A DNA stretch of 64,000 nt from positions 62,001 through 126,000 of the forward strand of contig NZ_JARGDQ010000007.1 of assembly GCF_029210385.1 (NCBI RefSeq), in the 5' to 3' direction. Source of the stretch: Desulfurivibrio dismutans (GTDB lineage: Bacteria; Desulfobacterota; Desulfobulbia; Desulfobulbales; Desulfurivibrionaceae). Below are positions 5,421 to 46,089 of the stretch, one piece after another (position 1 is the first letter of the stretch; every line of letters begins with the position of its first letter). The notes beneath the pieces are model-generated. The model made no database searches, was not told the DNA's origin, and saw only the letters and a program-made list of their open reading frames with translations. Both the position numbers and the translations under genes were made by a program.

Positions 5421-5580
5421 ATGATGATGTCGCAAAAAGTCCGTCCATGGACTTTTTGCTCCCCGGAAAGCGAAAACGCGGTTTCCGCTTTCCTTACAAA
5501 TCAATAGGTTACACAGCAAGCTATTGATTTGCGCGCCCATCCATGGGCGCGTTGATGACTTCTTGCGAAGTCATCAATAA
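5421..5580. repeat. Family 1 five-hairpin element, copy A
   Basis: Five consecutive hairpins: 5432-5459 (GCAAAAAGTCC / GGACTTTTTGC), 5465-5493 (GGAAAGCG / CGCTTTCC), 5497-5531 (CAAATCAATAG / CTATTGATTTG), 5532-5551 (CGCGCCCAT / ATGGGCGCG), 5552-5577 (TTGATGACTTC-ttgc-GAAGTCATCAA). It occupies most of the 377-base gap between the chemoreceptor and secA; I see no gene in the remainder. Copies B and C (18.0 and 36.7 kb) are in the opposite orientation. Confidence 0.9.
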
Positions 5581-16090: not shown

Positions 16091-16223
16091 ATAACTATCC
16101 AGCTCATGCGGGGGTAACTGTTCAGCAGTGCCCCAGGTTGGGGCAAGCGGCCTGGCGCCGCGTACTGTTGGGTACGCAAGCCGGGCCGATCGCCCCAAGA
16201 TGGGGTGCTGCTGGACAGTTACA
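16091..16223. repeat. Family 2 long palindrome, class I arms
   Basis: GTAACTGTTCAGCAGTGCCC on the left answers GGGGTGCTGCTGGACAGTTAC on the right around the centre GCGTACTGTTGGGTACGC. It lies in the divergent gap between cobB and the TPR gene (15885-16316), which otherwise holds only the promoter noted next. Confidence 0.85.
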
Positions 16224-16230
16224 CTTTTTT

Positions 16231-16259
16231 TTGACCTGGGCTCCGGGCTGTGTTATCTT
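16231..16259 (+). promoter_or_regulatory. Promoter of the TPR-HEAT gene group
   Basis: TTGACC (16231-16236), a 17-base spacer and TATCTT (16254-16259), 58 bases before the TPR gene start and directly after the palindromic repeat. Confidence 0.5.
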
Positions 16260-16955: not shown

Positions 16956-18079
16956 AAGGCCAACAGATTAAAATCCGCCCCCGCTGTCCTTTTTGCGGCG
17001 ACGAAATCGAACCACCCCAGGACCAGGATCAGCGCAAGCTGGGAGAATTCAAAGTCGGCCGCTGTCAATGCGGCGCGGTTTATGCCTGTGATGCCACCGG
17101 CCACAATATCGGCTCGGCGATGATCGAGGCCCTGGTACACGCCTGTAACGACAACTGGGAACTGGCCTGGGAGTTGCTGCCGGACCAGGACTACCTTACC
17201 GGCCGGGTGGAAAGCTACGACGAAATCACCCACCAGACCCTGGAGCAGCGCCATTTGGACGGCCGCTACGTCCGCGGGGTGCTCTATTTTGTCCGGCTGC
17301 AGAAGGAGATTGAAGAGATTACCCAGCAGCTCCAAGCAAAGCCCGCCGATTATTTGCCGCCCCTGGAACCCGAACGCGACCCCCATCGCCGCCGGCAACG
17401 AGCCGACAAAAAAGAGGTGCAGCGCCTGGCCCTGGCCGGCGACATTGACGGGCTGGTGGATCTGACCCTCGATGATGTTCGCACCCTGCGTTTTCTCCAG
17501 CGCCTGCTCTACACCCCCGATGACGATCAGCGCTGGTGGCTGGCCCACGTCATCGGTCAGGTTTGTGCCCGGGTGGCTACCCGCCAGCCCGGGGTGGTCA
17601 GCGACCTGCTGCACCGGCTCTTTGACGCCAGCAGTGATTCCGCTGCCGCCAACTGGGGGCTGGTGGAAACCATGGGCGCCATCATCGCCGGCCGGCCGGA
17701 CATCTACGGCGCTTTTACCCGACACCTGCTGCGCTACATCAATCATGTCAGCACCCGCCCCCTGGTCCTCTGGGCCCTGGGCAGCGTGGCCGCCCGCCGG
17801 CCGGACCTGATCCGGGCCAACCAGTTTTACCAGTTGTTCAATCTGCTGAACGATCCCGATGCCTTGACTCGCGCCCTGACCATCAGGCTTTTGGGCCGGG
17901 CCGGAGCCCGGGAAGTTTGCGACCGCCTGGCGGCGCTCACCCGGGATCAGACCCCGGTGACCATCCACGAAGAGGGCCGCCCCCGGGCAACCACCGTCGG
18001 CGATCTGGCCGCGGAGGCACTAATGATGACTTCGCAAGAAGTCATCATCGCGCCCATGGATGGGCGCGCAAATCAATAG
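16952..18079 (+). CDS. DVU0298-like protein: zinc-ribbon N-terminus with HEAT-type repeats
   Basis: 375 residues. The N-terminus has two cysteine pairs, CPFCGDE (about 11-17) and CQCGAVYACDATGHNIG (about 36-52), suggestive of a zinc ribbon. A polar linker near 130 leads to helical HEAT-like repeats (RPLVLWALGSVAARRPDL; RALTIRLLGRAGAREVCDRL). It resembles proteins called DVU0298 family in sulfate reducers; the function is unknown. The last 16 or so residues after LAAEAL are encoded by the five-hairpin repeat element that begins at 18022, and the stop codon lies in its third hairpin, so the native C-terminus has been replaced. Confidence 0.75.
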   Translation: MKGQQIKIRPRCPFCGDEIEPPQDQDQRKLGEFKVGRCQCGAVYACDATGHNIGSAMIEALVHACNDNWELAWELLPDQDYLTGRVESYDEITHQTLEQRHLDGRYVRGVLYFVRLQKEIEEITQQLQAKPADYLPPLEPERDPHRRRQRADKKEVQRLALAGDIDGLVDLTLDDVRTLRFLQRLLYTPDDDQRWWLAHVIGQVCARVATRQPGVVSDLLHRLFDASSDSAAANWGLVETMGAIIAGRPDIYGAFTRHLLRYINHVSTRPLVLWALGSVAARRPDLIRANQFYQLFNLLNDPDALTRALTIRLLGRAGAREVCDRLAALTRDQTPVTIHEEGRPRATTVGDLAAEALMMTSQEVIIAPMDGRANQ

Positions 18080-18187
18080 CTTGCTTGGTAAGATATTGAT
18101 TTGTAAGGAAAGCGGAAACCTCGTTTTCGCTTTCCGGGGAGCAAAAAGTCCATGGACGGACTTTTTGCGGATTCATCAATAATGATG
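18022..18187. repeat. Family 1 five-hairpin element, copy B (inverted relative to A)
   Basis: Hairpins in order: ATGATGACTTC-gcaa-GAAGTCATCAT, CGCGCCCAT/ATGGGCGCG, CAAATCAATAG/TATTGATTTG, GGAAAGCGG/CGCTTTCC, GCAAAAAGTCC/GGACTTTTTGC, ending in TTCATCA. It overlaps the 3' end of the HEAT gene and stops 20 bases before the next gene of the group. Confidence 0.92.
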
Positions 18188-19756: not shown

Positions 19757-19802
19757 TTCAACTGATGCATGACGGGCTTTTGCAAAACGACAACTATGAT
19801 AA

Positions 19803-19899
19803 TCTCGCAAAAACCCGCCAAAGGGGTTGGTCGGGAGCGTGAAAACAAATAGCTACAAAGAGTGCCCAGTCGGCGACGCGGCTTTTTGCGACGCCGACC
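19803..19899. repeat. Family 3 structured repeat, inverted copy
   Basis: Reverse-oriented copy of the element seen at 39.9-40.2, 46.9, 47.7 and 61.3 kb: TCGCAAAAACCCGCC on the left and GGCTTTTTGCGACGCCGAC on the right. It contains the apparent start codons of the following gene. Confidence 0.75.
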
Positions 19900-36660: not shown

Positions 36661-36848
36661 GATGTGTGACGACTGCGCAAGAAGTCGTCATCACGCCCCC
36701 GCGCGCCCCCCGCGCCCCCTAATGGACGGACGCACAAATCAATAGCCTGCTTTGTCAGCTACTGATTTGTAAGGGAAGCGGAAACCGCGTTTTCGCTTCC
36801 CGGGGAGCAAAAATTCCATGGACGGACTTTTTGCGGATTCATCATTAT
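36661..36848. repeat. Family 1 five-hairpin element, copy C
   Basis: Same orientation as copy B. Hairpin 1 is GACGACT-GC-rich loop-AGTCGTC with compensating changes, hairpin 2 is replaced by an expanded C/G-rich tract (about 36693-36720), hairpins 3-5 are recognisable. It fills the divergent gap between PBP1A and mltD (36548-36926); no gene is seen there. Confidence 0.85.
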
Positions 36849-39931: not shown

Positions 39932-40155
39932 TTGCAAAATTGTCGGCGTCGCAAAAAGGCGCGACGACCACGGGGCACGTTTTGTAACTACTTGTTTTCG
40001 CATTACCGACCAATTAGTTTGGGGTGTTTTGCGAGGTTGTCAAAATTGTCGGCGTCGCAAAAAGGCGCGCCGCCGACTGGGCACGCTTTGTAACCAGTTG
40101 GTTTCGCGTTGCCGACCAACCCGTTTGGCGGCTTTTTGCGAGGTTGTCAAAATTG
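39932..40155. repeat. Family 3 structured repeat, two tandem copies (106 bp period)
   Basis: TTGTCGGCGTCGCAAAAAGG recurs at 39940 and 40046-40047, and TTTTGCGAGGTTGTCAAAATTG-type ends close each unit. Within a unit GTCGGCG pairs with CGCCGAC, and CGCAAAAAG…GCCGCC can alternatively pair with GGCGGCTTTTTGCG. Confidence 0.85.
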
Positions 40156-40213
40156 TAACCGATCCCCAGACCCGATAACCAGTCGATATATAAGTGATCA
40201 CAGGGGCCACAAG

Positions 40214-40322
40214 GTAAGCGGTCACGGGGTGCCGCAGGTTGCGGCACGCGGGACGGTAAAGCCTACACCAATGCGTGAGCCGGCCCGATCGCCGCAAGAT
40301 GTGGTGCCCCGTGATCGCTTAC
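40214..40322. repeat. Family 2 long palindrome, class II arms
   Basis: GTAAGCGGTCACGGGGTGCC faces GGTGCCCCGTGATCGCTTAC. It covers the first codons of the open frame that precedes the radical SAM gene. Confidence 0.88.
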
Positions 40323-40358
40323 GTTGCGGGAAACCTGAAATCCGGATATGTTGCCGCC

Positions 40359-42913: not shown

Positions 42914-44229
<1,316 letters not shown>

Positions 44230-44230
<1 letters not shown>

Positions 44231-44578
44231 ACGTTGGGCAGCACCGCATCTTTGGGCGATCGGCCCGGCTTGCGTACCTGGGGTACGCGGCGCCGGACCG
44301 CTTGCCCAAATCTGCGGCACTGCCCAACGTTTACCGGGTTGTTCTGTAACTGTCCAGCAGCACCACATCTTTACGGCGATCGGCCCGGCTTGCGTACCTG
44401 GGGCACGCGGCGCCGGACCGCTTGCCCAAATCTGCGGCACTGCCCAACGTTTACCGGGTTGTTCTGTAACTGTCCAGCAGCACCACATCTTTACGGCGAT
44501 CGGCCCGGCTTGCGTACCTGGGGTACGCGGCGCCGGACCGCTTGCCCAAATCTGCGGCACTGCCCAACGTTTACCTGG
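44230..44578. repeat. Family 2 tandem array, three units at a 120 bp period
   Basis: CGATCGGCCCGGCTTGCGTA begins at 44257, 44377 and 44497. Unit 1 has matching arms (AAACGTTGGGCAG / CTGCCCAACGTTT). Units 2 and 3 have a different left arm (GTAACTGTCCAGCAGCACC, as in class I copies) but the class III right arm (CTGCCCAACGTTTACC), so they look like hybrids. Convergent gap between purA and the lipoprotein gene. Confidence 0.92.
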
Positions 44579-46019: not shown

Positions 46020-46089
46020 TTAGTGATGAACTCGCAAAAAGTCCGTCCAGGGACTAATGATGACTTCTTGCGAAGTCATCATTAGTCCC
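46020..46089. repeat. Family 1 element, collapsed copy D
   Basis: Left end of the element (TGATGAACTCGCAAAAAGTCC) is joined directly to hairpin 1; hairpins 2-4 are missing. The result is a perfect 18-bp stem (46050-46067 with 46072-46089) with a TTGC loop. Its right arm includes the stop codon and last codons of the upstream gene (GGGACTAA on the coding strand). Confidence 0.88.

Follow-up and report, generated by a model that had tools for sequence, protein, structure and literature searches.

A new MITE family in Desulfurivibrio dismutans that has the ends of an IS1182-like group of insertion sequences

The described systems closest to the repeat reported here are the REP/BIME elements with their RAYT transposases, the IS1182 family of insertion sequences, and the bacterial and archaeal MITEs. 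A RAYT is defined as a tyrosine transposase flanked by REP palindromes, with no target duplication, and REP elements themselves, to our knowledge, make none. The IS1182 family, which includes IS1272 and is represented by the NCBIfam model NF033551, usually carries the domains DUF772, DDE_Tnp_1 and DDE_Tnp_1_6. IS1272 is reported to have inserted into inverted repeats, its new insertions had no duplication, and some IS1182 members are cited as palindrome-targeting (PMC5678879). PMC3852290 describes archaeal MITEs with little in common with their partner beyond ends of less than 20 nt. The present repeat is a new family of MITEs, a class of mobile DNA already known, and its ends are those of an IS1182-like group. 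Judging from sequence comparisons, we put the probability that it was moved by an IS1182-like DDE transposase supplied in trans at roughly 0.83. Among the titles and abstract openings of that part of the matches covered in a literature search on MITEs and IS1182 in related bacteria, no description of the repeat was found.

Four copies lie in the window, by which we mean the whole stretch of 64,000 nucleotides analysed (Table 1). When the genome (33 contigs, 2,838,417 bases) was searched with the copy at 5422-5576, 49 matches were obtained, the query itself counted, and 15 of the others span most of it at 77-99% identity. The family has many copies beyond the four of the window, and the same-genus genome G002 (a single contig of 3,097,763 bases) holds four element matches. 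At the loci examined in the D. dismutans genome, 39 elements could be delimited. Five belong to a second, 103-bp family and the other 34 to the main repeat, comprising 16 full five-hairpin copies (155-183 bp), 17 collapsed copies (48-70 bp) and one of 124 bp. Their terminal inverted repeats (TIRs) are ~20 bp long, TGATGAnnTCGCAAnAAGTC. With up to two mismatches allowed, the TIR pattern has 77 matches in the genome, against 2 with the reversed control; with up to three, it has 10 in the window, where 0.09 are expected, and 8 of these are the ends of the four copies while 2 belong to the 103-bp family. No transposase gene is present in these elements, whose sizes run from 48 to 183 bp, and the two copies in which reading frames were enumerated contain by-product frames only. 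The string VRPWTFCSPESEN, which had been quoted as such a by-product, does sit in a mechanical reading frame entering the element, and spurious small frames of this kind are thereby explained.

Table 1. Positions in the window of the four copies, of the parts of the reference copy and of one target site duplication
Feature	Position	Strand	Remarks
Reference five-hairpin MITE copy, 155 bp	5422..5576	+	10 other near-full copies at 92-99% identity; aligned
Left TIR TGATGATGTCGCAAAAAGTC	5422..5441	+	end-pattern match
Right TIR TGATGACTTCGCAAGAAGTC	5557..5576	-	end-pattern match
Hairpin 1	5432..5459	.	fold; 2 pairs with two-sided changes
Hairpin 2	5465..5493	.	fold; 3 pairs with two-sided changes
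Hairpin 3	5497..5531	.	fold; 2 pairs with two-sided changes
Hairpin 4	5532..5551	.	fold; 0 two-sided changes
Hairpin 5, terminal palindrome including right TIR	5553..5576	.	fold; 2 pairs with two-sided changes
Second full copy, 155 bp	18024..18178	-	in last codons of upstream frame; site empty in G002 (equal length, no gap), G001 and G004
Third full copy, 178 bp	36667..36844	-	hairpin 4 enlarged by GC-rich sequence
Collapsed copy, 58 bp, left TIR and terminal hairpin	46024..46081	+	short class, 17 members delimited
Target site duplication TTAG, left	46020..46023	.	flanks 46024 copy
Target site duplication TTAG, right	46082..46085	.	flanks 46024 copy

The earlier note on this DNA had described four copies, found in both orientations, in which five shared stems follow one another in an identical order and the ends are of TGATGA/TCATCA type. 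This stands for the copies at 5422-5576, 18024-18178 and 36667-36844, save that one outer end of the last reads TGACGA. The fourth copy lacks the five stems: of the full form it keeps just the left TIR and the terminal hairpin, along with a CCAGGG remnant. It is one of the 17 delimited elements of 48-70 bp. The copies had been located in the right places, with a few flanking or duplicated bases taken in.

On either strand the 5422 copy folds into five hairpins, and the fold is strong (z of -10.8 as DNA and -9.2 as RNA, with 0 of 200 shuffles equally good). Stems are also better kept than loops, as the earlier note had observed, the mean identity being 0.962 in paired and 0.895 in unpaired columns over 17 rows. 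The stem alignment consists of 16 copies from this genome together with a single G002 copy; 54 pairs entered the count, and 96.6% of their cells are able to pair. Two-sided changes were seen in nine pairs, against a shuffled mean of 1.0 (sd 0.9; 0 of 500 shuffles reach nine) and 1-2 in slid controls, and each of the nine is confined to a single copy. Since a single aligned row supplied the fold, and the shuffles take no account of relatedness, these statistics support, short of proof, a structural constraint. RNAalifold, run on the same alignment, gave 49 pairs, 8 of them with two-sided changes, and a small covariation term (-0.14).

Comparison with relatives revealed the empty orthologous sites that a mobile unit had led the earlier note to look for. 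All four window copies lie between syntenic matches that are closer together in G002, where the element is absent; the four matches that G002 does hold are at other places. At the first, third and fourth copies the G002 gap falls short of that in this genome by 174, 147 and 60 bases, and at these sites G002 is too diverged for an exact junction. At the second copy the flanking matches overlap by 6 bases, the junction is ungapped and base-exact, and the same site is empty in G001 (three bases shorter) and in G004 (diverged beyond).

As a separate observation, the insertion at 18024 has swapped the last residues of the upstream frame for element-encoded ones. That frame ends AEALKMTEKVEQA in G002 and inside the element here, and MIEKVEQS, the C-terminal residues of the relatives, reappears in frame past the element.

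Target site duplications are a further feature of the family. Of the 39 delimited elements, 21 are flanked by a perfect 4-bp duplication, whereas 2000 shuffles gave a mean of 1.64 and never more than 7. Once the five rows of the 103-bp family are set aside, 18 of 34 have such a duplication and one more has 5 bp. The remaining lengths stay close to chance expectation in this genome: 3 bp was found 3 times against 2.2 expected from shuffles and 5 bp twice against 0.5. Within the window only the copy at 46024 has a perfect 4-bp duplication. Among 80 short elements at the loci of other genomes, 4 bp was found in 39 (shuffle mean 1.66), 3 bp in 9 (mean 2.3) and 5 bp in 9 (mean 0.50). Because 3 and 5 bp also exceed chance there, we describe the duplication as 4 bp, sometimes 5.

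The end pattern is widespread: it is present in 99 of 193 sampled genomes of the order, which we take to be Desulfobulbales, with at least 10 matches in 28 of them and one control match among those listed. The hunt for an autonomous partner started from 39 DDE_Tnp_1 places in 8 TIR-rich genomes, 30 of which were examined as loci. A close end beside the transposase, here present as a fragment, was seen in only three of the 30 (L183, L190 and L194), all of one type; at L180 a separate MITE lies nearby, rather than an end beside the transposase. A scan of genome contigs with one transposase fragment yielded 13 loci, titled mostly Desulfobulbaceae, Desulfobacterales, Desulfofustis or delta-proteobacteria, and in one case Candidatus Thiosymbion. 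In nine of these, TIRs 1.9-2.0 kb apart flank an intact or broken transposase gene; the remaining four loci are fragmentary or truncated, or hold a 709-bp derivative. The transposase profile (A1), which gained further full-length copies, has matches in 19 of the 193 genomes, many of them with fragments.

Altogether, 16 distinct insertion sequences of ~1.9 kb with both TIRs were collected in other genomes, duplicates being counted once. The set derives from 23 long pairs, 8 of which were dropped because they rest on weak matches or pair up ends that belong to separate elements (L157, L160, L161, L164, L213 at its outer end, L215 at 4465, and L228 at 3212 and 3323); L226 was added by hand, since the script requires a longer left flank than this locus offers. 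By hand count, duplications at the 16 are of 4 bp in 9, of 5 bp in 2 and absent in 5. Before any pair was dropped, 12 of the 23 had a duplication of 4 or 5 bp, and the dropped L213 pair has a 4-bp match.

Intact transposases at the scan loci are 579-608 aa long. The three proteins scored with NF033551 match most of the model at 171.8, 134.6 and 163.7 bits; these scores fall below the curated cut-off of 270, and the partner is for that reason named IS1182-like and not IS1182. In the two proteins compared with Pfam, DUF772, DDE_Tnp_1 and DDE_Tnp_1_6 were all above their cut-offs. Compared with the 16 insertion sequences, the MITE has its best matches at the termini (query positions 1-20 and 123-155), and the few interior matches are of 10-23 bases with E above 1. 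L190 1340-2048 (G182:C291), which is 709 bp long and has both TIRs and a transposase fragment, probably represents a stage between insertion sequence and MITE. Because the insertion sequences were found via their transposase, their agreement on its type is not independent evidence, and others with the same ends could be missed.

The mobile-element reading follows from the TIRs common to the MITEs and the 1.9-kb insertion sequences, from the 4-bp duplications on both, from the empty orthologous sites and from the many copies in both orientations. The suggestion in the earlier note of a mobile, non-autonomous, TIR-bearing unit without a linked transposase is thus borne out by the TIR counts, the duplications and the gaps against relatives. 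In the proposed mechanism, an IS1182-like DDE transposase provided in trans would bind both ~20-bp TIRs, the MITE would be cut out or copied and then joined to a 4-bp staggered break, and gap repair of that break would give the 4-bp duplication. We infer that the copies were mobilised by this group and not by some other enzyme that prefers the same ends, and that the genome later lost the partner. The IS1182-like transposase, searched for directly and by profile, was not found in this genome or in the 26 other sampled genomes of the family (G001-G026, several incomplete). As the partner was found neither here nor in the sampled family, the MITE looks orphaned, apparently throughout the genus. 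More generally, with the ends in 99 of the 193 genomes and the transposase profile in only 19, the short passengers seem to outlast the transposase.

Several candidates and collections were also examined. The two DDE_Tnp_1 loci of this genome both lack the TIR, one of them (L253) being cut by a contig end. Inward-facing ends 1.2 kb apart at C30:130475-131690 resembled an autonomous element, but they enclose a 366-aa frame (L077 1475-2691, G000:C30), presumably cobT-like as judged by eye. The 160-bp element had no match in plasmid and phage collections. The end pattern occurs on 12 viral contigs, where no end pair at insertion-sequence distance was found, only 173-bp pairs.

The identity of the moving enzyme has to be weighed against two other possibilities. 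A different DDE transposase, whose ends would be the same through sharing or convergence, is made conceivable by the failure to find the IS1182-like type in this genome and the sampled family, and by the fact that the insertion sequences were found via the transposase, so that others could have escaped. Yet close ends were seen only beside the IS1182-like type among the 30 DDE_Tnp_1 loci, and the two such loci of this genome have none; we consider another DDE enzyme unlikely. The earlier note had proposed a REP-type tyrosine transposase, and strong hairpins, many copies in both orientations and three Y1_Tnp matches in the genome would fit a REP/BIME-type element that depends on a Y1 (RAYT) enzyme. 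However, in the flanks examined none of the three Y1_Tnp loci showed a matching end, and the repeat has variable 4-bp duplications, of the sort produced by DDE enzymes, in place of none. The 4-bp duplications, ~20-bp TIRs and empty sites speak against REP/RAYT, favour a MITE mobilised by a DDE transposase, and make a Y1 mover highly improbable.

The earlier note had also raised a structured RNA unit. On a fuller version of this reading the repeat would be an RNA or regulatory unit, such as a terminator or a processing site, kept for its RNA fold, with its spread incidental. The excess of two-sided stem changes over shuffles and the greater conservation of stems than of loops speak for it. Against it stand the empty orthologous sites, the target duplications and the occurrence in both orientations, and a covariance-model search at the Rfam gathering score found no family at the element, a tRNA being the sole match in the window. 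Moreover, two-sided changes that are each confined to one copy are also what hairpin-templated repair gives, and the covariation term is small. As an explanation of the repeat we regard an RNA unit as very unlikely; an RNA role could have come later in the life of the element and is not needed for its spread. In the MITE reading, the stems may have been kept by hairpin-templated repair or because the fold aids mobility. The five-hairpin interior is unusual.

Mean identity is 94.5% among the eleven 155-bp copies and 82.3% among 13 copies of 55-62 bp, which makes the five-hairpin form look like a younger burst; the five hairpins form the inner part of a single subfamily whose amplification was recent. 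Several 59-bp copies match the long form once the segment bounded by two TCCATGG repeats is taken out. At 48 bp, the shortest copy (L056) amounts to hardly more than two TIRs back to back; it has an AAAA duplication in an A-rich site, but could reflect shrinkage in place. Short elements of other genomes are the better evidence on the role of the interior: they have the same ends, their interiors differ from the present one (17 were inspected), and 4-bp duplications occur among them, so the five-hairpin interior is probably not needed for insertion.

In the collapsed window copy, 8 bp of the internal arm of the terminal hairpin are complementary to the copy's own external flank, and in L060 (1355-1520) the same is true of 6 bp. 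Of 33 copies tested, 3 reach 6 bp (shuffle mean 0.09; 0 of 5000 shuffles reach three), of which two remain because L012 was mis-registered by 5 bases; the shuffle figures include L012, and single shuffled pairs reached 8 bp. Transposition of an unchanging sequence would hardly produce flank complement of this kind, which, from few cases, suggests hairpin-templated copying. Tentatively, stems might be re-perfected arm-from-arm during replication or transposition, with flank DNA copied into the terminal hairpin, and lengthening it, in at least two copies, although we hold this to be doubtful. If true, it would, together with the inverted-repeat targeting of IS1272, make the fold part of a structure-dependent transposition or repair cycle of IS1182-like elements. 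The near-identical hairpin set is in any event a place where hairpin-templated mutation could be measured.

Other repeats were noted alongside. The second short family, 103 bp long, occurs in the window at 19797-19899, 39941-40043 and 40047-40149 and also at L080 and L095; its ends resemble TGTCGGCGTCGCAAAAAG and TGATnnnCTCGCAAAAACCC, its TIR core is related, and some copies have 4-bp duplications. Further multi-copy repeats, which came up as additional matches in the synteny comparisons, lie at 2331-2460, 16092-16239, 40191-40323 and 44217-44445 of the window, and these also have many copies in G001 and G002. Two contig ends, G000:C30 223084-223161 and G000:C32 2-90, each hold part of one further copy of the main repeat, which suggests that the two contigs are perhaps neighbours.

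Set beside the known systems, the repeat resembles REP/BIME elements and their RAYTs in having palindromes in many copies, and differs from them in its target duplications, its long TIRs and the lack of an end at the three Y1 loci. The proposed partner, whose ends are common in the order, would give this widespread repeat end a transposase. It resembles the IS1182 family in matching most of NF033551; it differs in scoring below the family cut-off and in having 4-5-bp duplications, where new IS1272 insertions are reported to have none. Like the bacterial MITEs of insertion sequences, the repeat is short and protein-less, has TIRs of the autonomous type and a target duplication, and is present in many copies. 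It departs from them in that its partner was not found across the sampled family, and in having five consecutive internal hairpins with two-sided changes.
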